The notes beneath the pieces were generated by a model, which saw only the letters and a program-made list of their open reading frames with translations, ran no database searches and was not told the origin of the DNA. A program made the translations under genes and the position numbers. From a virus, in IMG/VR virus record IMGVR_UViG_3300044641_001665, positions 1-37,445 of that record: DNA of 37,445 bases. One strand, given 5' to 3'. Below, in pieces: positions 4,108 to 26,511 of the stretch; positions within the stretch are counted from its first letter, which is position 1; each line of letters starts with the position of its first letter.

Positions 4108-5080
4108 ACGTAATCCATACACAGTAATTGGAACGCATTGTGAGTACGAAGTTAATACAGCACATGACCTAATGGTACAGGCTGGACTTGACTGGAAAGT
4201 TACATTAGAAAATGTATTTATTAATGAGACTGATCCGATTGAAGTACCAGATAGATACGCAACAGTTAAGTGGACCAATACAGGATGGACTGATACAGAT
4301 CCTACACCACTAGCAGTAGTAGGTTCACGCTATAAAGTATTACAGAATAGCGAGATCTTTTCATGCCTTGACGACATCGTTCAGAATAGTGATGCACGTT
4401 ATGGTGCAGCAGGTGAACTCAAAGGTGGCAACATAGTATGGGCAACCATTGAACTACCAGCTAACATTACAGTTGGCGATGATCCACATAATGCATATGT
4501 AATTGCACGTACATCACACGATGGTAGTATGCCATTCCAAATGACACCAGTTGTCAATCGTCTAAGCTGCACTAATCAAATCAATGCAGCCATGATGAGT
4601 GGTAAAGCTAAAGGTATTTACTACCGTGTTAAGCATAGTCCTAATAGCAGTATCAATGCAGATGATATTAGAAAAGCATTTAGAATTATGAATGAAGATG
4701 TTCAGAAGTATGCAACAGTATCATCATACTTACGTTCAATTGAATTTAGTAACGAAGAGTTCAAGAACTTTATCAAGCGAGTGTATGCACTACCTAGCAA
4801 GATTGAGTTCTCACCATATGAGATGCTTAGTGCAGGTGAACGTACAAGTAAGACAAGAGTAGAACGAAATAGACTTAATGCATGGAACGTATGGATCGGT
4901 GAAACCGACACGCAACATAACATTAAGAACACCAAGTTCGGTGCATTCCAAGCTATCGTGGAAGCAACCGATCATTTTAGTAAAGACTATTCAAAGCAAG
5001 CAAGCAAAATGATTCTCGGCACAGACATAGCCGTGAAGTCACGCGCACTACAACTATTAGGAGTTAACAATGGGTCTTGA
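4100..5080 (+). CDS. DUF932 (phage/plasmid-like) protein
   Basis: The 326-residue product has the features of the DUF932/TIGR03299 family found on many phages and plasmids: an N-terminal segment with a VVGSRYKVLQNSEIF motif (about residues 72-86), the central GELKGGNIVWATIELP strand region, and MTPVVNRLSCTNQINAAM near residue 150. Length fits the family. The biochemical role is not established; the family often sits among replication or recombination genes, as here. It overlaps its neighbours on both sides. Confidence 0.85.
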   Translation: MTRRNPYTVIGTHCEYEVNTAHDLMVQAGLDWKVTLENVFINETDPIEVPDRYATVKWTNTGWTDTDPTPLAVVGSRYKVLQNSEIFSCLDDIVQNSDARYGAAGELKGGNIVWATIELPANITVGDDPHNAYVIARTSHDGSMPFQMTPVVNRLSCTNQINAAMMSGKAKGIYYRVKHSPNSSINADDIRKAFRIMNEDVQKYATVSSYLRSIEFSNEEFKNFIKRVYALPSKIEFSPYEMLSAGERTSKTRVERNRLNAWNVWIGETDTQHNIKNTKFGAFQAIVEATDHFSKDYSKQASKMILGTDIAVKSRALQLLGVNNGS

Positions 5081-5570
5081 TATGTACCTAAATGTAAGTG
5101 AAAGAATTAGTAGCCATGATTTTAATAGAGTTAATAACGTAGTAAGTTATACCGAAAGCCCTAGATATACTGATGTTATTGAAGCAGCAGGTATTAAAGT
5201 AAAAGATAACATGGCATCATCAGTATCAGTAGAGTGGACTGCTATCTATTGGCGTAAAGCTAATCAGATTCATGGATGGTTTGTAAATAAATTAGCTGAT
5301 GGAGTTGATGAGTGCCAATGCATACGAGTAACTAGAGATAATCTAGTTGACTTACATCATATCTGTGGTCAGTTAATTGATACACGATCAACAGAGTTAG
5401 CTAATGAATTGCTGCCACCAACACCAGGATTTTTCTTTGGTGGATATGAGATTGATGAGTACTACTGGCAAGACATTGAAGAAACACACAAGCAACTGAC
5501 TGAGTTACTTGATGAGATCACAGAAGAAAACAAATGGAACTATGAGATTGAGTACCAAGCATCATGGTAG
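5070..5570 (+). CDS. MGLDMYL-type conserved phage protein (166 aa)
   Basis: The N-terminus MGLDMYLNV is a hallmark of a widespread family of phage and bacterial hypothetical proteins, which share a WTAIYWRKANQIHGWFV-like core, seen here at residues about 57-73. The function is unknown. TAGGAGT lies just upstream of the ATG. It overlaps the end of the DUF932 gene by eleven bases, consistent with co-translation. Confidence 0.75.
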   Translation: MGLDMYLNVSERISSHDFNRVNNVVSYTESPRYTDVIEAAGIKVKDNMASSVSVEWTAIYWRKANQIHGWFVNKLADGVDECQCIRVTRDNLVDLHHICGQLIDTRSTELANELLPPTPGFFFGGYEIDEYYWQDIEETHKQLTELLDEITEENKWNYEIEYQASW

Positions 5571-5764
5571 AGTTAGCAGAAGATCACTTTGCTATTGATG
5601 GATACAGAGCTGATGTATTAATAAGTCCAGATACATTAGTTTATTTACAAAAAATTAATGAAGTAGTAATGGAAGGTGAATGCATGTGGTTTAAAAGTTT
5701 AACTACATGTAGGTACGATCCACACACGGGAGATGTGTTTGATGTTTCAGATCAACAGCAATGA
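5564..5764 (+). CDS. Hypothetical protein (66 aa)
   Basis: ATG at 5564 overlaps the end of the previous gene by seven bases. The small mixed alpha/beta protein has no recognised motif; it ends with a DVSDQQQ tail that overlaps the start of the WhiB-like gene. Its place in the coupled operon and clean frame make it credible. Confidence 0.6.
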   Translation: MVELAEDHFAIDGYRADVLISPDTLVYLQKINEVVMEGECMWFKSLTTCRYDPHTGDVFDVSDQQQ

Positions 5765-6041
5765 GTCAGCAGCATGTGATGGCATGGATACAGAGTTCTT
5801 CTTTCCAGTAAGCGATGAAGATCTAGACAATCCATTTGGTAGAGATAATGTTTATCCACAGCTAAGAAAAATCTGTGGAGAATGTGATGTCCTTGATAAG
5901 TGCAGAGACTGGGCTATCAAACACGAAGAGTGGGGGTTCTGGGGTGGAATGTCCGTCTATGAACGCCGTCAATGGAGAAAGAAATACAATATTAAAATTG
6001 AGCAGCCTTGGACCTCAGGCTTTTTGAAAGGAATAAAGTAA
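5742..6041 (+). CDS. whiB: WhiB-like iron-sulfur transcription factor
   Basis: A 99-residue protein with the complete WhiB signature: four Cys at C12, C45, C48 and C54 (CxxCx5C) for a [4Fe-4S] cluster, then the turn motif WGFWGGMS and a basic tail (YERRQWRKKY) for DNA contact. I chose ATG 5742 because GGGAG at 5728-5732 is nine bases upstream; the ATG at 5733 would be too close. WhiB proteins act with the primary sigma factor and occur in Actinobacteria and their phages. In mycobacteriophage TM4 a phage WhiB interferes with host WhiB2, so a role in redirecting host transcription or division, or in superinfection exclusion, is plausible. This gene is the best evidence for the host phylum. Confidence 0.95.
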   Translation: MFQINSNESAACDGMDTEFFFPVSDEDLDNPFGRDNVYPQLRKICGECDVLDKCRDWAIKHEEWGFWGGMSVYERRQWRKKYNIKIEQPWTSGFLKGIK

Positions 6042-12287: not shown

Positions 12288-12674
12288 CTAATTAGCCTTT
12301 ACTTGCCGACCGTCCAGTGTTATTGGAGCAGTACCATCATGGTCTATATACAAACCAACTGGCATCTTACCACCTGAAATAAACCCATGAGCTAGGGTTA
12401 CCCAGATAGTCTTACCTGCCATCCCTGGATGGACAGGATAAGAGAAATGACCAGTGTAGTCAGCCTGTGGTGTACCTGGATAGCGACACCACCGAAAGCG
12501 AATAATGCTAGGTAGTCCACCACCAGGTAGTTCTATCTGAACGGTAGTCTCCCACATTAAACGCTTAGTGCGTGTAGATCCCTTCCAAGATATCTTCTTG
12601 TTAATCCGAACAGGAATAGCCTTACCTGAAATAATAGATTGTTTATCTTTATTTGATTCTACTTTAGCAATCAT
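12288..12674 (-). CDS. Unknown beta-rich protein at end of lysis module (128 aa)
   Basis: I chose the ATG at 12674, which overlaps the endolysin TGA (ATGA); a GTG at 12686 in frame would extend by four residues. The product is basic and beta-rich, with WETTVQIELPGGG and RFRWCRYPGT near the middle and YIDHDGTAPITLDG near the end. No catalytic motif was recognised. As the last gene after holin and endolysin it could be a cell-wall-binding or lysis-assisting protein, or a decoration protein. Neither is proven. Confidence 0.65.
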   Translation of the reverse strand: MIAKVESNKDKQSIISGKAIPVRINKKISWKGSTRTKRLMWETTVQIELPGGGLPSIIRFRWCRYPGTPQADYTGHFSYPVHPGMAGKTIWVTLAHGFISGGKMPVGLYIDHDGTAPITLDGRQVKAN

Positions 12675-16880: not shown

Positions 16881-17780
16881 TTATCTAGTGAAGTGGATTC
16901 TAGTTGGATTACGATCAGTTAACTTACGACTTTCTTCAGCAAGTCGCTTGTCATATAGTGCAAGAAGATATTTAGATGCATTAGTACCAGCACCATAGGC
17001 ACGACCAGCAATCTGTGACTGTTGATCTGCTTCAGCAGAACCAAAGGTAAGACGACCTGGATCAATAAATGCTGACAAACGTGCAGAAGCACCAAGTACA
17101 ATTACATCTTTACAAGATGCTGGTAAACCAGTAACAATTTCAAAGTCATCATCATTGCTATCCATTACCGCTGGAGCAGCAGTGTAAGATATTTGTACGG
17201 TTCTTCCAGGCTCAACACCAGAATAGAGACTAATAGAATTCCTAGAATCAAAAGCGTCAGTGTTAGCCATAGAATCAACACGCCAACTACGAATAGGAAG
17301 CCATTCTTTAGATGGACCAGTAGTTTCATAAGCCACTCCTAGTACAGTTTCTGCTTCATTTGGAAGAGGATAAGTAGTTTTAGCTGGTGAATAAGAAAAC
17401 GTATGTGTTGCAGTAGCATAAAGATCTGGGAATACTGCTTCAATAGTTTCATTAATTGCTGATTTAATATCTATACTTGGAAATGTAGGAGAGATAATTA
17501 CACGTGCACCAGCTGCGTGACTTGCAGCAGATGTTCCATTGTATCCACGACCATACGGAGGAATACTTAATGTACCAGTTGATCTATCGTATGCATCTAC
17601 ATAAATAAGTTCATCATCAACCTGAATAACACCAGTAGAAAGATTACTTGCAGAAGAAACAACAAGAGTTGTGACTGTTGAATTAATCGCAGACACCAGA
17701 TGTGTCTGACGATCTTGACGCAGTGTAAAACCTGCTAATTTACGTGCTACCTCATCAGTCATTTGACCAAATGTTGCCAT
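16881..17780 (-). CDS. Probable head-tail connector / adaptor protein
   Basis: A 299-residue protein with an N-terminal helix (MATFGQMTDEVARKL), a beta domain at residues about 30-95 (AINSTVT, RGYNGTSAASH), and a helical-plus-beta remainder containing IDIKSAINETIEAVFPDL and PASCKDVIVLGASARL. The helical adaptor segment followed by a strand-rich domain resembles podovirus tail adaptor proteins such as gp11 of T7-like phages. Overlaps the 665-residue gene by one base. The role is inferred from layout and position, not from a diagnostic motif. Confidence 0.55.
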   Translation of the reverse strand: MATFGQMTDEVARKLAGFTLRQDRQTHLVSAINSTVTTLVVSSASNLSTGVIQVDDELIYVDAYDRSTGTLSIPPYGRGYNGTSAASHAAGARVIISPTFPSIDIKSAINETIEAVFPDLYATATHTFSYSPAKTTYPLPNEAETVLGVAYETTGPSKEWLPIRSWRVDSMANTDAFDSRNSISLYSGVEPGRTVQISYTAAPAVMDSNDDDFEIVTGLPASCKDVIVLGASARLSAFIDPGRLTFGSAEADQQSQIAGRAYGAGTNASKYLLALYDKRLAEESRKLTDRNPTRIHFTR

Positions 17781-19777
17781 TATTTACCTTCCAACTTTTC
17801 AATATAATCTGCAAACTTTTTAGCTTCTTGAGCAATTCTGCTTCTAGCTTCTGTATCTGCTGCTGGAGTATCCGACCATTGCTTTCTAAGTCTTTCTACT
17901 TCAGCTCTTGCCTTAGCAATCTTTCCTTGCCTTGTAAGCTTTGTAGTTTCTCCACCTCTACCAGGAACAGCTGGCTTAATTTCTACTGGAGAAGTTACAT
18001 ACTCTTGACCCTTAGGATTATACTTTTGTGATCGTGCTGCAAGATTGCGTCTTGTAACTTCATCAGCAATTTCTTGTGCTTTCATTTTATCTTCACGAGA
18101 AAGCATTCGCATTTCTCTAAGTTCATCATCAATTCTGTCTATGATTTTTTTATTTCTTGCACTAGATTGCTTAAGTTTTGAAATTTCTTTCTCACTTGCT
18201 GTTTTTATTTCAGTAGTATTCTTTGCATTAAATGCTTTTAATTTTGATTTTTCAGCTAGAAGAGCAGCAGCTCTTTCAACAGCAGGAGCGACATCATCTA
18301 AAAGATCTTTTGGTATTTCTGTTCTTACTCTTACTGGTGCTTTACCAGTACGAGTAGGTCCTTTAGCTGTAGTTGTAATAGGTGCATTATCTACTGCTTC
18401 ATCAACAAAAGCTTTTAACTCACCAGGCTTAGCATCGTCAGCTAAACTTTCTTCATACCTAAGTAATACATCTTTAGACTTAGGATTAGAAGGCATTTCT
18501 TTTTCAACTTTACGAAGTATTGCCTTGCCCTCTGCCGTGTTAACAACTTTATTTCTAAATTCTTTTTTAAGTTCTCCAAAACTATTTCTAATAACTTTCA
18601 AATCTGCAGCAGAAATTCTTCTATCTTCAGGAACACGTTTGCTATTTAACTTTACATCTTTTAACATTCTTCTTGCTGCAAGATAAAGATCAGTTATTTC
18701 TTTAGCATCTAGTTCAGTTTTAGTTTTATTAAATCTACGAAGTTCAGCAACAGCTGCTTTAATTTCATCATCTGTATAGTTACCACTACGAACATTACGT
18801 AACACAAATTCAACAGGGCTAGATGTTTCGTCAGCTACTCTACCTACTGGTGGTACTTGTCTAAATGATTCTTCTTTATCACTACCGCCACGTACATAAT
18901 CTTCTAATCTTTTCTTATGATTTTTAGCTGATTCACCTGGCTTGCGCTTAAGGAATTTTGTTTCTTCTGGAGTCAATTGGGAAATACGATAATCAATTTC
19001 ATCTTGACTAAATTTAGTTTTATCGTAATATTGAGAACCTTGGATTTCTTTTAATTTAGATTCAGCTAAAAGTTCTTCTTCAGTTACAGGCTTTCTTACA
19101 GGCTCTACAGGATTGGTTGATCTTTTGCCACCACGCATTGCAATAGCATCTTCAGCAGCTTGTGCAGCATCTATGTCGCGATCATAGTAATTATAATCTT
19201 CATCTGAAGTACGAGTGTACTTCTTTTCAACCATTCCCTTTTCAGCCTTAGCTGCTGGAGTAGGAATACCTTCTTCATAATCTTTAACTCTTTTAGCATA
19301 AGCAGCATCTGATTCTTTTGGTCCACGCTTAAGTATGCTTTGACCAACTTCATAAGCAGGAGTAGGTTCTCCCATGCCAGCACGACCTACACGCTCAACT
19401 GGTTGATCAAAATCTCCACCAAAACGTTGTACTGGTTTTTCAGGTATGTAACCTTGACGCTTCATAGTAAGAGCATCATCTAGAGTTTTAGATGCAGCTC
19501 GCCTAGCAGCAACAGACATTGTATTTTTTGTTGCATCATCAGCAAGTGTTTTACTTGTTGTTTTAATTACAGCATTTAAAGCTTTACCACTTAACTGCAT
19601 AATTTTGGCAGGAGCAATAAAAAAACTAGCAGCAGTAACACCTACAAGTGCAGCATCTCCCCAAGTTCCTTCGCCTTTGGCAATCTTTGCAATTGTATCT
19701 GTTGCAAAAAGAAAGTCGCCAACTTCAGCTAAGTAACTCCTGTCCTGAGGTCTTGCTGCCATGGTATCAATAGCCAT
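17780..19777 (-). CDS. Large helical basic protein, possible internal virion / ejection protein
   Basis: A 665-residue protein, almost entirely charged helix, with extended Lys/Glu-rich coiled-coil stretches (residues about 500-560 and 610-665). Residues about 40-65 contain a hydrophobic helix (AALVGVTAASFFIAPA) that could insert in a membrane. Long amphipathic proteins with one membrane-active segment, encoded among podovirus head and tail genes, are often packaged and ejected with the DNA. No enzymatic motif was found. It precedes the connector gene with a one-base overlap. Confidence 0.5.
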   Translation of the reverse strand: MAIDTMAARPQDRSYLAEVGDFLFATDTIAKIAKGEGTWGDAALVGVTAASFFIAPAKIMQLSGKALNAVIKTTSKTLADDATKNTMSVAARRAASKTLDDALTMKRQGYIPEKPVQRFGGDFDQPVERVGRAGMGEPTPAYEVGQSILKRGPKESDAAYAKRVKDYEEGIPTPAAKAEKGMVEKKYTRTSDEDYNYYDRDIDAAQAAEDAIAMRGGKRSTNPVEPVRKPVTEEELLAESKLKEIQGSQYYDKTKFSQDEIDYRISQLTPEETKFLKRKPGESAKNHKKRLEDYVRGGSDKEESFRQVPPVGRVADETSSPVEFVLRNVRSGNYTDDEIKAAVAELRRFNKTKTELDAKEITDLYLAARRMLKDVKLNSKRVPEDRRISAADLKVIRNSFGELKKEFRNKVVNTAEGKAILRKVEKEMPSNPKSKDVLLRYEESLADDAKPGELKAFVDEAVDNAPITTTAKGPTRTGKAPVRVRTEIPKDLLDDVAPAVERAAALLAEKSKLKAFNAKNTTEIKTASEKEISKLKQSSARNKKIIDRIDDELREMRMLSREDKMKAQEIADEVTRRNLAARSQKYNPKGQEYVTSPVEIKPAVPGRGGETTKLTRQGKIAKARAEVERLRKQWSDTPAADTEARSRIAQEAKKFADYIEKLEGK

Positions 19778-19933
19778 TTATTTTTTCTTTCGAGTAACTG
19801 CCATATTGTCAATTAAATTTGGATAAGGTCTTCCAGCTTTTTTAGCACGATCTTTAGCTGCAGCCTTTTGAGCTGATGTTAATGGTTTAGATTTTTTCTT
19901 AGGGTTAGGTTTATCCCAAACTTTTTTTACCAT
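19778..19933 (-). CDS. Small highly basic protein (51 aa)
   Basis: ATG 19933 overlaps the end of the upstream gene by seven bases, and the stop abuts the next gene. The sequence is Lys-rich, with KVWDKPNPKKKSKPL near the start and AGRPYPNLIDNMA near the end; I believe similar short proteins occur in other environmental phage genomes, with no known function. The strong charge suggests nucleic-acid binding. Confidence 0.7.
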   Translation of the reverse strand: MVKKVWDKPNPKKKSKPLTSAQKAAAKDRAKKAGRPYPNLIDNMAVTRKKK

Positions 19934-20214
19934 TTAACTTTGTCCGCCCAGTATGCTGCGGACATTTTACCTTTTGAAATATTAGATGCGTGACGTGCTT
20001 TGAATGACCGCCTACGTGCAGCATAGGATGCTGACTCTCCTGATTTCTTAGGAGAGCCAGACACACCCTGCTGACCAAAGCGAATAGTCTTAACCTGATT
20101 GCCAACTTTAGCCACAACAACGTGTGACTTCTTTGGATGATTAGGAGTACGCTTTGGTTTGTTGTAGCCAGAAACACCAGCACGTGTTAAACGTGGATCT
20201 TTCTTAGCTACCAT
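19927..20214 (-). CDS. Conserved small basic phage protein (95 aa)
   Basis: A basic protein with an ordered pattern: an N-terminal PRLTRAGVSGYNKPKRTP, a beta segment KSHVVVAKVGNQVKTIRFG, and a helical ARRRSFKARHASNISKGKM with a final YWADKVKW. I recognise this as a widely distributed conserved phage protein, possibly assigned to a DUF, but I cannot name it safely. It is one of a run of six small basic genes (19778-21643), perhaps involved in DNA condensation or virion structure. Confidence 0.7.
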   Translation of the reverse strand: MVAKKDPRLTRAGVSGYNKPKRTPNHPKKSHVVVAKVGNQVKTIRFGQQGVSGSPKKSGESASYAARRRSFKARHASNISKGKMSAAYWADKVKW

Positions 20215-20216
20215 AA

Positions 20217-20855
20217 TTACTTACCTCGTCGTGCTTGATTGTAACGACTACCAGCAGAAGACATAATTTTTGTTCCTTGTGCTTTCATCTTGTTAGTTAC
20301 ACCTTGCTTTGCAGCAGCACGCTTAGCGGTTGTCTTCTTTACATACTTAGATACTTCTGCTCTAGGGTTTGCCTTAGCACCAGCATGTCTTGGACCAGAT
20401 GTTTTTTTGTGCTTACCTGCAGCAGCCTTGGCTCTTGCAACATCTTTCTTTTCAAACTTTGTCATGCCCTTAGCAGCACCAACTGCAACAGCTACGGCAC
20501 CTGCGCCAGCAGCAACAGCCTTACCAGTGCTTACAGGCTTTGAAGTAGAAGAAGATGGTTTGCGAGTATTGCCTGGACCTTTACCCATTGGTGGCTTTGA
20601 GCGAGTGTTACCTGGACCCTTGCCTGGTGGCAAAGAAGATCGCTTTGGATCAGCAACTACACTACCTACACGATCCTTACCATAAAAACGATTAAGTGCT
20701 TCACGCATTGTTGGATCGTTTTTGTATTTAGCAATTGCTTTTGTTGGAGTTCCTTCTTTGCGAAGTTTATCTAACTGTGCTTCAGTTACTTTTTTAGTTA
20801 GATCAAAGTTCTTTTTCTTAAAGGCATCCATTTCTGATTTTGTCATTTTAGCCAT
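20217..20855 (-). CDS. Lys/Ala-rich histone-like protein (212 aa)
   Basis: The N-terminus (1-60) is a charged helical segment. A duplicated PxGKGPGNTR motif follows (about residues 76-98). Residues about 108-128 form an Ala/Gly/Val segment (VAAGAGAVAVAVGAAKG) that is either a flexible linker or a membrane helix. The C-terminal 80 residues are Lys/Arg/Ala-rich, like histone H1 tails, ending in NKMKAQGTKIMSSAG and then RRGK. Nearly the same ending is found in the gene at 21290-21643. Likely binds DNA or RNA; a virion DNA-condensing role is a guess. Confidence 0.65.
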   Translation of the reverse strand: MAKMTKSEMDAFKKKNFDLTKKVTEAQLDKLRKEGTPTKAIAKYKNDPTMREALNRFYGKDRVGSVVADPKRSSLPPGKGPGNTRSKPPMGKGPGNTRKPSSSTSKPVSTGKAVAAGAGAVAVAVGAAKGMTKFEKKDVARAKAAAGKHKKTSGPRHAGAKANPRAEVSKYVKKTTAKRAAAKQGVTNKMKAQGTKIMSSAGSRYNQARRGK

Positions 20856-20857
20856 GA

Positions 20858-21136
20858 TTACTTCTTCTTTGCTTTAGCTTTTTTCATTTGAGCTTCAAGA
20901 GTCTTAAGTTTCTTTTGACGATCTTGTCCTGGCTTTGCTGGTATCTTTTGTCCTCTATCACCTGGCTTAATATCTTTTGTATCTCTGCCTGGCTTAATAG
21001 GTAAAGGCATCTTCTTGCCATTACCTGCACCTGGCTTAACAGGAAGTGGCTTCATTACCTTTTCGCCTGGCTTTGGTCGTGGCTTTGGCTTACCAATGTA
21101 AATTGGCTTGCCTGGATTTCTTGGATTGTTTGCCAT
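20858..21136 (-). CDS. Pro/Lys-rich disordered basic protein (92 aa)
   Basis: Built of KPG/KPKPRP-type repeats (KPGEKVMKPLPVKPG and similar), followed by a Lys-rich helical C-terminus (LEAQMKKAKAKKK). It is almost certainly disordered and binds polyanions. It abuts its neighbours with no spare bases, so it is part of the same late transcript. Confidence 0.65.
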   Translation of the reverse strand: MANNPRNPGKPIYIGKPKPRPKPGEKVMKPLPVKPGAGNGKKMPLPIKPGRDTKDIKPGDRGQKIPAKPGQDRQKKLKTLEAQMKKAKAKKK

Positions 21137-21137
21137 G

Positions 21138-21290
21138 TTACTTACCCTTCTTGGTTGACTTAGGCATAGCAGGAACTACTGGTACCTTTGGCATGTTGTA
21201 ATTTACTTTGTCAATACCTTTAACCGAGCCAGGCATTGTAGGCATTTCATGTTGATAGTTGATGTGGTTACATCCACACTTAGCACACAT
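21138..21290 (-). CDS. Small Cys-motif protein (50 aa)
   Basis: ATG 21290 overlaps the stop of the upstream gene (TAATG). The product starts with MCAKCGCNH, a compact CxxCxC metal-binding site, followed by a Pro/Met/Lys-rich flexible tail. The overlap and sequence character support a real gene. Function unknown; it lies inside the run of small basic genes. Confidence 0.6.
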   Translation of the reverse strand: MCAKCGCNHINYQHEMPTMPGSVKGIDKVNYNMPKVPVVPAMPKSTKKGK

Positions 21291-21643
21291 TACTTCTTAC
21301 CTCGTCTGTTGTAACCTGAAGTAGCAGAAGAATTAATCTTTGCTCCTTGAGCTTTTATTTTGTTTTTAGCATTAGCTTTAGCAGCATTAACACGAGCTGC
21401 TTCTTTAGCTTTAGCTGCAGCTATTTTAGCGTTTTTAATTGCCTTAGCTTTAGCTTCAATTGATTTAGCACTTTGAGTTTGTTCTTTTGCCCAAGGATTA
21501 GGTCCAAGACCTTTTCCACGAAATCCACCTTTTGGTCTAGGATATTTTGTTATATCTTTAGCACTTAAAGTTTTACCACTTCTACGAGCTTCATTAACTA
21601 ATTGTTTAGCTTTAAGTATATCTTTACTTTCATTACTAGCCAT
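21290..21643 (-). CDS. Lys/Ala-rich basic protein sharing tail with 20217 gene (117 aa)
   Basis: An N-terminal helix (DILKAKQLVNEARRSGK) and GGFRGKGLGPNPW are followed by an Ala/Lys helix (about residues 60-95) and the ending NKIKAQGAKINSSAT followed by RRGKK. The last ~22 residues closely match the ending of the 20217-20855 product, so the two are partial paralogues or share a targeting or binding tail. Probable DNA-binding or virion-associated protein. Confidence 0.65.
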   Translation of the reverse strand: MASNESKDILKAKQLVNEARRSGKTLSAKDITKYPRPKGGFRGKGLGPNPWAKEQTQSAKSIEAKAKAIKNAKIAAAKAKEAARVNAAKANAKNKIKAQGAKINSSATSGYNRRGKK

Positions 21644-21654
21644 ATTGTTTTCCT

Positions 21655-21921
21655 TTATAGAGCAGAACCATATGCGTGTCCTGTCTTGTTGCTTACATCT
21701 ACTGCCTTTTGAATCTGTGCAGTGGAAGTTCCATCTGGTTGTATACCCTGAGCACGAGCATCACGGTAAGCTTTTAGTTCGCTGTCCCATTTCTTGTTAG
21801 TCCAGCCATTGTTAACTAGTTCACCATTGGCATCACCAGTTGACATCTGTATGTTTGAAGCTCTTAGACAGTCTCCCCAAGAGTCATGGTCTTGAGTAGG
21901 ACATCCAGTTCTACAAGCCAT
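21655..21921 (-). CDS. MACRTGCP-type Cys protein, long form (88 aa)
   Basis: The N-terminus MACRTGCPTQDHDSWGDC has three Cys (C3, C7, C18) arranged as in the shorter protein at 23002-23097, which begins MACRTGCPTQDCESYADC. Residues 30-88 add a helical domain (ELKAYRDARAQGIQ) absent from the short form. Function unknown; it overlaps the glycosyltransferase end by 11 bases, so the two are likely co-expressed. Confidence 0.65.
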   Translation of the reverse strand: MACRTGCPTQDHDSWGDCLRASNIQMSTGDANGELVNNGWTNKKWDSELKAYRDARAQGIQPDGTSTAQIQKAVDVSNKTGHAYGSAL

Positions 21922-22984
21922 TCTTATAGTCCTTTACAGTTTGAGTCATAATAAACTCATAGTTTTTAACTAAACGTTCTTCATCAGGATTTAGTTCAAC
22001 TGCTTTACGTGCGTATCTTTTAGCAGAACCTTTTTTACCTAAGTTCCAACATGCAATAGATAGCAAGTCATACATTCTCCAAGGCATTGACTGATCAGCT
22101 ACATGGTGTTTGTATGAATGAGATGAAAGTTCAGTTACTTTAATTGCTGCTTGGTAACAGTGATTCCACATCTTACGTTCGTAATAGTAAAATGCTAGTG
22201 GCATCCAAGCTTCTAAATCATTAGGTGCTTCTTCAACATTACGTTGATACCAATAAAGACCTTCACGCTCATTACCTAATTTGCAATAAGCTTCACCCAT
22301 AGCTCGCCATGATTGAGCAAGCTCTACATTCCAACCACCAGTTTGAAGTTCTAGCTTCTTACCATGATCAATAATTTTTTGCCACATACCCTTAAAGTAA
22401 TACTCACGTATTAAGTAAACCAACATTCTGTGGTTGTCAGGATCTTCTGCGTGACCTAGTTCTAATAGTGATAGATAACTACTACGAGGTTTATCATTAT
22501 CAGGTTTATGAGTTACTAGTGACTCTACTATAATAAGTTTATCTAAACTTTTATCAGTAGCCTCTATAACTTCATGGCAAGGATAACGCCATCTATAGCC
22601 ATGCCTAGCATGTATACGATTATTGTTTGCCCAGATATTACCTGTGTCCCACATTACCCAAGCTCTACCAGTATCTGGTTGCCAAGCTTCTTTTATCTTG
22701 TCAAAGAAATCTGGATCAGGAATCTCATCCATATCAATGGATACACATACATCAACATCAGATGGTACTAAATCTAGTGCCATATTTCGTGCTACATCAA
22801 ATCTAAAGTCGCTTAGCGTGGCTCTGTGGGCTTCTACGGGGTACTCTAGGAGTAGGTCATAGGTGTTATCTTCTGACCCAGTATCTAGGACAATTTGGAC
22901 ATCAGCACCTTTAGTAACTTCTACCCATTGTCCAACATGTTTAGCTTCATTCTTAGCTATAGCATAGGCTGCAATTTTAACCAT
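21911..22984 (-). CDS. Family 2 glycosyltransferase with TPR repeats
   Basis: A 357-residue protein. Residues 1-150 form a GT-A fold: AIAKNEAKHVGQWVE, VLDTGSEDNT (D34), FRFDVARNMAL, and the metal-binding SIDMDEIPD with D84-x-D86. From about residue 200 there are TPR-like helices (MGEAYCKLGNEREGLYWYQRN, cut at 20 here: MGEAYCKLGNEREGLYWYQ; and AWMPLAFYYYERKMWNHCYQ). The enzyme would transfer a sugar from a nucleotide donor; likely targets are a virion protein, a fibre or a host glycan. Its place among tail genes favours a virion target. It is flanked by the two MACRTGCP genes. Confidence 0.85.
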   Translation of the reverse strand: MVKIAAYAIAKNEAKHVGQWVEVTKGADVQIVLDTGSEDNTYDLLLEYPVEAHRATLSDFRFDVARNMALDLVPSDVDVCVSIDMDEIPDPDFFDKIKEAWQPDTGRAWVMWDTGNIWANNNRIHARHGYRWRYPCHEVIEATDKSLDKLIIVESLVTHKPDNDKPRSSYLSLLELGHAEDPDNHRMLVYLIREYYFKGMWQKIIDHGKKLELQTGGWNVELAQSWRAMGEAYCKLGNEREGLYWYQRNVEEAPNDLEAWMPLAFYYYERKMWNHCYQAAIKVTELSSHSYKHHVADQSMPWRMYDLLSIACWNLGKKGSAKRYARKAVELNPDEERLVKNYEFIMTQTVKDYKNGL

Positions 22985-25500: not shown

Positions 25501-26511
25501 CTAGGCGATGCTAGAACCAGACTCGATGCGGTATAGAGCTTCGTTACGGTAGATAGCGTGACCAAGAACGCCGTACCATCCGATTGGACGGTGACGCATC
25601 AAGCGGTCAACAACTGGACCAATAACTACGTGTGGCTCTTCTGCTACAGCTTCAGCAAGTGCTTGCTGTCCTGCAATAAAGGTACGGTATACCTTATCTG
25701 AGCTTGCACCATCTGTAGCAGTGTACAGACGTGGAGACTCAATAAAGTATGCACCTTCAAACTGACCAATTTCGCCAGCCCAGATTGCATCGTTGCTCTG
25801 GTACTCATGTGGGTTACGCCATGAAGCAGCACCAGTTTCAGCACGAAGGTCGTGGGATACTTCTGGGTGAATACCACACCAGTATAGTGAACCCTTACGT
25901 CCGTTAGCCTTGTTGCTACGCAACTTAGCTACAGCCTTACGAACATCAGCAGCGGTGATTGTGTCACCTGCGTCTACTCCCGAAGTTGTAGTTGCAGTGG
26001 TTGTACCACCAGTTGCGTATAGTACGTTAGTACCTGCAAGTAGAGCATTCTGTGCTAGATCATCAATGCTATCAGCCATGTTGAATGCAATGATGTTAGC
26101 AACTGCTGGATCTACGTCTGCAAGAGACATAAGACCAAGCTTCTTGGTTACTAGAGTAGCGTTACCGTATTCCTTTAGGGTAATGGTAACGATATCTGGA
26201 GTACCAAGTGCTACTGCAGATGGATCGACTTCTTCAGATAGTTCTGAAGTAGCCTTAGCTAGGTCATTGTAGATCTGTAGAGCTACAGAAGAACCTGGCA
26301 TGCTCTGACGAGCTGGTTTCTTGTCTGCTACTGAACGTAGCAATGGGGTTGCGCGTAGTTCAAATTCAATAAGACGATCGTACGCCTTCTGAACAAGACC
26401 AGCACCATTTGATGGAGTGAAAGCACCAACGTTGTTAGCGGAAGCGTATGCGCCACCACCGAGACCACCATTAGTTGCTGCACTACCACCCGATAAGCCT
26501 GTAAACGGCAT
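25501..26511 (-). CDS. Major capsid protein (N4-gp56-like)
   Basis: A 336-residue protein with the features of HK97-fold capsid proteins of the N4-gp56 group: a flexible Gly-rich N-terminus (1-35), KAYDRLIEFELRATPLLRS, a central SSVALQIYNDLAKATSELSE and TITLKEYGNATLVTKKLG, an RKGSLYWCGIHPEVSHDLR segment and the C-terminal RPIGWYGVLGHAIYRNEALY. AAGGAAAT lies just upstream. Codons contain visibly more G and C than in neighbouring genes, as expected for the most highly expressed virion gene. It follows the scaffold gene directly. Confidence 0.85.
   Translation of the reverse strand: MPFTGLSGGSAATNGGLGGGAYASANNVGAFTPSNGAGLVQKAYDRLIEFELRATPLLRSVADKKPARQSMPGSSVALQIYNDLAKATSELSEEVDPSAVALGTPDIVTITLKEYGNATLVTKKLGLMSLADVDPAVANIIAFNMADSIDDLAQNALLAGTNVLYATGGTTTATTTSGVDAGDTITAADVRKAVAKLRSNKANGRKGSLYWCGIHPEVSHDLRAETGAASWRNPHEYQSNDAIWAGEIGQFEGAYFIESPRLYTATDGASSDKVYRTFIAGQQALAEAVAEEPHVVIGPVVDRLMRHRPIGWYGVLGHAIYRNEALYRIESGSSIA

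Follow-up and report, generated by a model that had tools for sequence, protein, structure and literature searches.

A conserved folded protein and exchangeable basic companions in the late operon of a probable freshwater actinophage: a putative accessory internal-head cassette

The late operon of a phage represented by an IMG/VR virus record (the entire record, 37,445 bases, is called the window hereafter) includes six consecutive genes encoding small and strongly basic proteins, one of which, p95, is a conserved protein with a confidently predicted fold. With a confidence that falls slightly short of even, this run can be regarded as an accessory internal-head cassette, in which the folded p95 would be accompanied by basic cargo that is exchangeable and packed together with the DNA. 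This reading starts from the observed gene order and conservation, the predicted fold and the domain fusions.

All six ORFs of the run, which spans 19778–21643 on the minus strand, are present and are transcribed from high to low coordinates, in the order 117, 50, 92, 212, 95 and 51 aa (Table 1). Their products have pI values of 9.6–11.4 and together carry a net charge of +124 over 617 residues. No other gene among the 42 scored in the window is as basic: each of the six reaches at least +0.12 net charge per residue, and all are consecutive; the next most basic gene, encoding an M23 peptidase at 12671, reaches +0.11. If charge were independent of gene order, six in a row would be expected with a chance of 37/C(42,6), i.e. 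about 7e-6. The earlier note, made from the sequence alone, had described these genes as lying back to back with overlapping ends and as grouped with virion genes. The back-to-back arrangement stands, but only two junctions overlap, by 7 nt (19927–19933) and 1 nt (21290), the remaining genes being 1–2 nt apart. The grouping with virion genes also stands: the run lies inside a minus-strand late operon that includes the major capsid protein gene (phrog_1357), and the window also has a portal gene (phrog_104). A promoter and terminator scan found sites no more frequent than in shuffled sequences, and therefore a separate transcription unit for the run cannot be shown.

The slot occupied by the run is bounded upstream by p88, which has homologues in Streptomyces podoviruses, and downstream by conn299, which is 38–40% identical to its Streptomyces homologues. 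The latter is probably a head-tail connector, a role suggested by gene order, as phrog_7578 carries no function. The intervening p665 matches no PHROG or Pfam family and has related ORFs in some relatives only; its position makes it a possible ejection protein.

Table 1. Positions and main characteristics of the run, its flanks and the capsid gene in the window
Feature	Position	Strand	Characteristics
p117	21290..21643	-	Lys/Ala-rich, 117 aa, net charge +23; C-terminal motif common to p212
p50	21138..21290	-	MCxxCGCN protein with Lys-rich tail, +6; cluster in 24/44 loci
p92	20858..21136	-	Pro/Gly/Lys repeat (KPG) protein, +22; cluster of 3 loci
p212	20217..20855	-	Basic, 212 aa, +39; Ala/Gly/Val stretch (AVAAGAGAVAVAVGAAK) and motif of p117
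p95	19927..20214	-	Conserved folded (predicted) member, phrog_7595, +20; 44/44 loci
p51	19778..19933	-	Helix-AGRPYPN-helix, 51 aa, phrog_34011, +14
p88	21655..21921	-	Upstream flank of slot; SSACPTQDH protein; phrog_10483, E 3e-27
conn299	16881..17780	-	Downstream flank; phrog_7578, E 4e-104
p665	17780..19777	-	665 aa, net charge +18, adjoins p51
Major capsid protein	25501..26511	-	Same operon; phrog_1357 major head protein, E 2.9e-83

The capsid protein of the window shares about 70% identity, along 90% of its length, with the capsid protein of record OX376640 (assembly LanE43-AprE7). We take this record to be Planktophila phage LanE43AprE7 (phage E7), which belongs to the first pair of phages to have been isolated on Ca. 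Nanopelagicales (PMC10202952). Because of this proximity and of a WhiB-like ORF recognized by eye at 5733–6041, the host is probably a freshwater actinobacterium. The window also includes a beta-1,4-glycosyltransferase-type gene (21911–22984; phrog_13126, E 2.3e-76), and the cultured Planktophila phages are reported to carry both a whiB-like gene and a glycosyltransferase gene (PMC10202952).

The relatives compared were 80 viral contigs retrieved by the capsid protein, together with contigs that the p95 search had brought up and that share the capsid. The stretch from the capsid gene to the connector is readable in 43 relatives, all of which carry p95 and a basic run there, and this disposes of the possibility that these genes are unrelated additions in the window phage alone. 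Within these 43 relatives, the slot holds 3–8 basic ORFs with a summed charge of +37 to +167 (median +86), counts that are approximate because the choice of ORFs was mechanical. The 227 basic ORFs from the 44 loci (window included) fall into 58 clusters, of which 34 are single. Beside p95 and p50, whose occurrence is given in Table 1, a DUF5872-like protein is found at 19 of the 44 loci and p51 at 13, and DUF6496-like and HNH-like types also occur; the literature searched holds nothing functional on DUF5872 or DUF6496. The slot of phage E7 carries ORFs of 53, 118, 61 and 84 aa (+15, +11, +17 and +17), the last of which is p95; a p95 match is also present in Planktophila phage F5 (record OX376641).

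Such a high turnover, with its many one-off ORFs and an HNH-like ORF among them, is what would be expected from a mobile cassette of small ORFs that brings no benefit and is tolerated between the capsid and connector genes. This explanation is nevertheless hardly credible, as p95 has been lost in none of the 43 relatives and as p95, p51 and p50 are, where relatives permit testing, under purifying selection like that on the capsid gene. Indeed, median dN/dS is 0.11 for p95 (39 pairs), 0.16 for p51 (9 pairs) and 0.15 for p50 (21 pairs), values comparable to that of the capsid protein (0.17); p212 gives 0.46 from a single pair.

The soil relatives, Streptomyces podoviruses FlowerPower, Immanuel3 and WRightOn, display the capsid (~53%), p88 and connector genes in the same order, with a neutral ORF of 153–172 aa in place of the basic run. 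Since these relatives do without it, the run is, judging from gene content, accessory and dispensable for this particle type rather than part of the core of the capsid or neck; a role as an essential capsid or neck structure was considered and ruled out on the same ground.

Full-length membership of p95 in phrog_7595 is clear, residues 3–95 aligning with positions 3–96 of the 96-position profile (E 1.6e-40). The AlphaFold2 model, built with 137 sequences, has a pLDDT of 93.4 and a pTM of 0.81 and consists of a beta hairpin followed by helices. A fold search of the PDB gave no match (best E 1.1), and candidate matches to ribosomal L24 and Erlin were rejected, their E values being 0.1 or worse. 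Two pairs of cysteines, 17/36 and 77/91, are each always gained or lost jointly across the 137 sequences (100 without; 31, 5 and 1 with; none with a single cysteine). This joint behaviour therefore supports the predicted fold, and the paired cysteines would fit optional disulfides in an extracellular particle.

The distribution of p95 extends far beyond the relatives of the window phage. A scan of viral contigs yielded at least 598 confirmed relatives. Matches were also obtained in about 55 cultured phage records (51 of them at E up to 0.1), which are nearly all aquatic and include cobaviruses, HMO-2011-type phages, cyanophages, a Vibrio phage and Pelagibacter phages. The best matches from unrelated phages are 70–92% identical. 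Among 84,980 bacterial and archaeal species genomes, 69 p95 loci were found, which are probably binned phage DNA since all lie in contigs titled MAG or bin. As the joint alignment of distant relatives offered no stretch conserved enough to be searched, a divergent member was used as query instead. Roseophage SIO1 carries at 5001–5216 a p95 homologue that is unannotated in both its GenBank and RefSeq records. The fold of a 95-aa Tunisvirus protein (BFVD V9SE36) matches that of p95 weakly but over nearly the full length (E 5e-3, TM 0.59); this protein may be a p95 relative in the Marseilleviridae, a lead only, drawn from predicted models.

The second protein assigned to a family is p51, of which residues 3–51 align with positions 5–53 of the 55-position phrog_34011 profile (E 1.6e-24; full-length membership) and whose AlphaFold2 model has a pLDDT of 85.1. 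It matches none of 50,697 cultured phage records and no PDB sequence. A link of p51 to histones was tried and rejected: its fold matches are often histones, limited to 28–30 residues at E about 2 or worse, and no sequence match accompanies them. On a T4-like contig (L131), the p51 domain (E 5e-22) forms the end of a 545-aa ORF within the order tail tube, portal, 83-aa acidic ORF, 545-aa p51-domain ORF, 134-aa ORF, head protease and scaffold. On another contig (L172:2138-5191), a 1017-aa protein ends in tandem basic domains, one matching phrog_3477/phrog_727 (SFCARMKGMKAKLTSAETANDPDSRINKSLRKWNC) and the other p51. It seems, from these sequences, that small basic domains of this kind are exchanged between free-standing ORFs and large proteins of phages. 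In another freshwater phage type (L148:2505-4590 and L151:3387-5150), a separate run of small basic ORFs, p51 among them, lies directly upstream of a connector-type protein of 308 aa (L148; phrog_7578, E 3.9e-5) or 321 aa (L151); one basic ORF of these runs resembles families annotated as virion structural proteins.

The other four proteins, p92, p117, p212 and p50, gave no convincing family match with PHROG and Pfam profiles. The C-terminal motif common to p117 and p212, KxKAQGxKIxSSAxSxYN..RRGK, has 14 identities out of 19, against 10 at most in 60 shuffles, and occurs also in two relatives (L176 and L208). It could be a packaging tag or, because a DNA repeat (D2) spans it, the trace of a recent duplication. 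Ala/Gly/Val-rich hydrophobic stretches like that of p212 are found in 15 of the 227 basic ORFs of the slot, and these stretches are perhaps membrane-active.

Composition had led the earlier note to regard the proteins as histone-like or protamine-like and to suggest that they might condense DNA in the head. Neither proposal is upheld. A Pfam search of the six proteins retrieved no histone, HU or protamine family, p95 is well folded according to its model, and its relative in phage ICP1 (see below) has a net charge of +1. The disordered Arg/Lys chain typical of protamines does not fit the pLDDT values of p95 and p51, the two proteins modelled. Complete condensation would take hundreds of copies of every protein: with 100 copies of each, about 16% of the phosphates in a genome of 39.5 kb would be neutralised, which makes bulk neutralisation unlikely. 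That the proteins are protamine-like bulk condensers neutralising the packaged genome is therefore quite improbable, despite the charge of +124 per set, the strong composition bias and the precedent of chlorella virus PBCV-1, which packs basic DNA-binding proteins (PMC3281028); the same source reports no evidence that basic proteins neutralise phage genomes to a large extent (PMC3281028).

The position of p95 and p51 relatives in other phages points rather to the prohead. The gp125 protein of ICP1 (phrog_9979) combines a Peptidase_S78_2/XkdF domain (residues 36–160, E 6.6e-10) with a p95 domain (residues 184–261; phrog_7595, E 5.8e-11). The p95 of the window lacks the Peptidase_S78_2 (XkdF protease) domain and corresponds to the C-terminal domain of gp125 only. 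The gp125 gene belongs to the head cluster, between the portal and capsid genes, and adjoins that of gp124, whose scaffold role has been shown experimentally (PMC10945586). In addition, the p95 domain matches positions 512–610 of phrog_220, annotated as minor head protein, DNA pilot, and BFVD fold matches of p95 include proteins named XkdF and ChaB. These fusions and neighbourhoods tie p95 and p51, the two proteins thought from the outset to be the most conserved and found here to be widely so, to the prohead.

Gene neighbourhoods of 64 p95 loci lacking the capsid family of the window give a similar picture. Strongly basic genes are about fivefold over-represented beside p95 (71/242 vs 30/424; the p-value of 7e-14 overstates the case because the loci are not fully independent), and the nameable large genes flanking p95 at such loci mostly encode terminase, portal, capsid, head closure, scaffold or protease. 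In KBS-S-2A, p95 lies between genes annotated as head morphogenesis and major head protein and has two basic neighbours. The cultured Prochlorococcus phage P-HS2 carries a similar basic run, with four strongly basic neighbours and p95 last, directly before the presumed capsid genes; the head genes of this phage are unannotated and were identified by analogy.

These data would also suit a role of p95 and its partners in prohead assembly or packaging, as scaffold, portal or terminase helpers gone before the particle matures. The p95 domain is indeed fused to the head protease of ICP1 and matches a minor head protein profile, terminase and portal are often the nearest large genes, and p51 is found at the gene position of a prohead core. 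However, these proteins are dispensed with by relatives whose capsid and connector belong to the same families, and a mere helper would leave the exchange of most companions unexplained; we consider such a transient role unlikely.

Not every carrier of p95 shows this link to the prohead. Cobaviruses have p95 at the end of their late operon, where its neighbours are lysis-type genes and other basic genes are lacking; likewise, p95 is not immediately preceded by basic genes in cobaviruses, HMO-2011 and MW202867. In HTVC008M-type phages and Melnitz, the p95 domain either adjoins cytidylyltransferase/DUF5824 proteins or is included in them. In Methylophilales phage Melnitz (L258:2351-4303), it forms the C-terminus of a cytidylyltransferase plus DUF5824 protein. 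Moreover, as the p95 domain of ICP1 is nearly neutral, the p95 fold itself need not bind DNA and charge is not one of its constant properties. The cobavirus arrangement agrees with proteins that are made late and stay in the cell, where they would bind nucleic acids or act on the host (transcription, translation or nucleoid), their place in the head operon reflecting timing only. The high turnover fits an interaction with the host, and the absence of p95 and of the run from the Streptomyces relatives places the run outside the minimal particle. Against this stand the fusions of p95 and p51 domains to a prohead protease and to proteins at prohead-core position, as well as the head genes that neighbour p95 in unrelated phages, so that an intracellular role is also given a low probability.

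Under the internal-head reading, we infer that the proteins are synthesized late and become part of the prohead, where p95 would hold itself, and perhaps the cargo, to the prohead interior, the portal or the packaged DNA. The exchangeable basic proteins would stay with the packaged DNA by charge, the C-terminal motif of p212 and p117 possibly serving as a packaging signal. At infection, this cargo would exit with the DNA and then protect it on entry or act on the host. A broader proposal, that many aquatic phages share a modular head-interior set in which p95 organises or marks the DNA and recruits changing basic cargo, as a counterpart of viral chromatin or of the T4 internal proteins, is for now doubtful.

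Whatever its role, p95 has no annotation although, among small proteins of aquatic phages, it ranks with the more conserved ones. Should it prove to be an internal protein of the head, many uncultured viruses would carry internal or injected proteins missed by annotation, and the exchange of cargo beside p95 would mark a hotspot of counter-defence genes. Neither virion proteomics of phages that bear p95 nor binding data for any cassette member were found in the literature searched; isolates bearing p95 include Planktophila phages E7 and F5, P-HS2 and cobaviruses, and E7 has the run.

The literature searched, whose coverage is incomplete, gives no description of this cassette. What appears to be new here is that sequence comparisons connect phrog_7595 and phrog_34011, two families that carry no function and to which p95 and p51 clearly belong, with proteins of the prohead and with a shared cassette. 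The cassette would be of a kind already known, that of variable internal head proteins, with a core protein that is unannotated and has no known fold match. The C-terminal domain of ICP1 gp125 resembles p95 by sequence and by predicted fold, but it is fused and nearly neutral, whereas the p95 of the window is free-standing and strongly basic. PBCV-1 packs several small basic DNA-binding proteins that are thought to accompany its DNA (PMC3281028); the likeness lies in the plurality of small basic proteins, PBCV-1 being a eukaryotic giant virus with no homology shown. The cassette would work like IPI–IPIII of T4 without being homologous to them. The T4 internal proteins are packed in about 360 copies, some are ejected, and they are replaced by related basic proteins in relatives (PMC9026906); IPI is an anti-restriction protein that inhibits a type IV restriction enzyme (PMC9026906), and IPIII is needed on one host (PMC9391042). 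In contrast, encapsidation and injection of the cassette proteins are presumed, these proteins match no annotated internal-protein family, the [LI]xE (LxE/IxE) cleavage motif is absent from all six window proteins, and p95 is nearly universal, as no internal protein is. Nevertheless, like the cassette, IPI, IPII, IPIII and the core proteins gp67 and gp68 are small, basic, encoded with head functions and variable between relatives, and the internal proteins are not always needed, being dispensable in some hosts. Furthermore, the p51-bearing gene of the T4-like contig occupies the place of the T4 prohead core, between the portal and a gp21-type protease.
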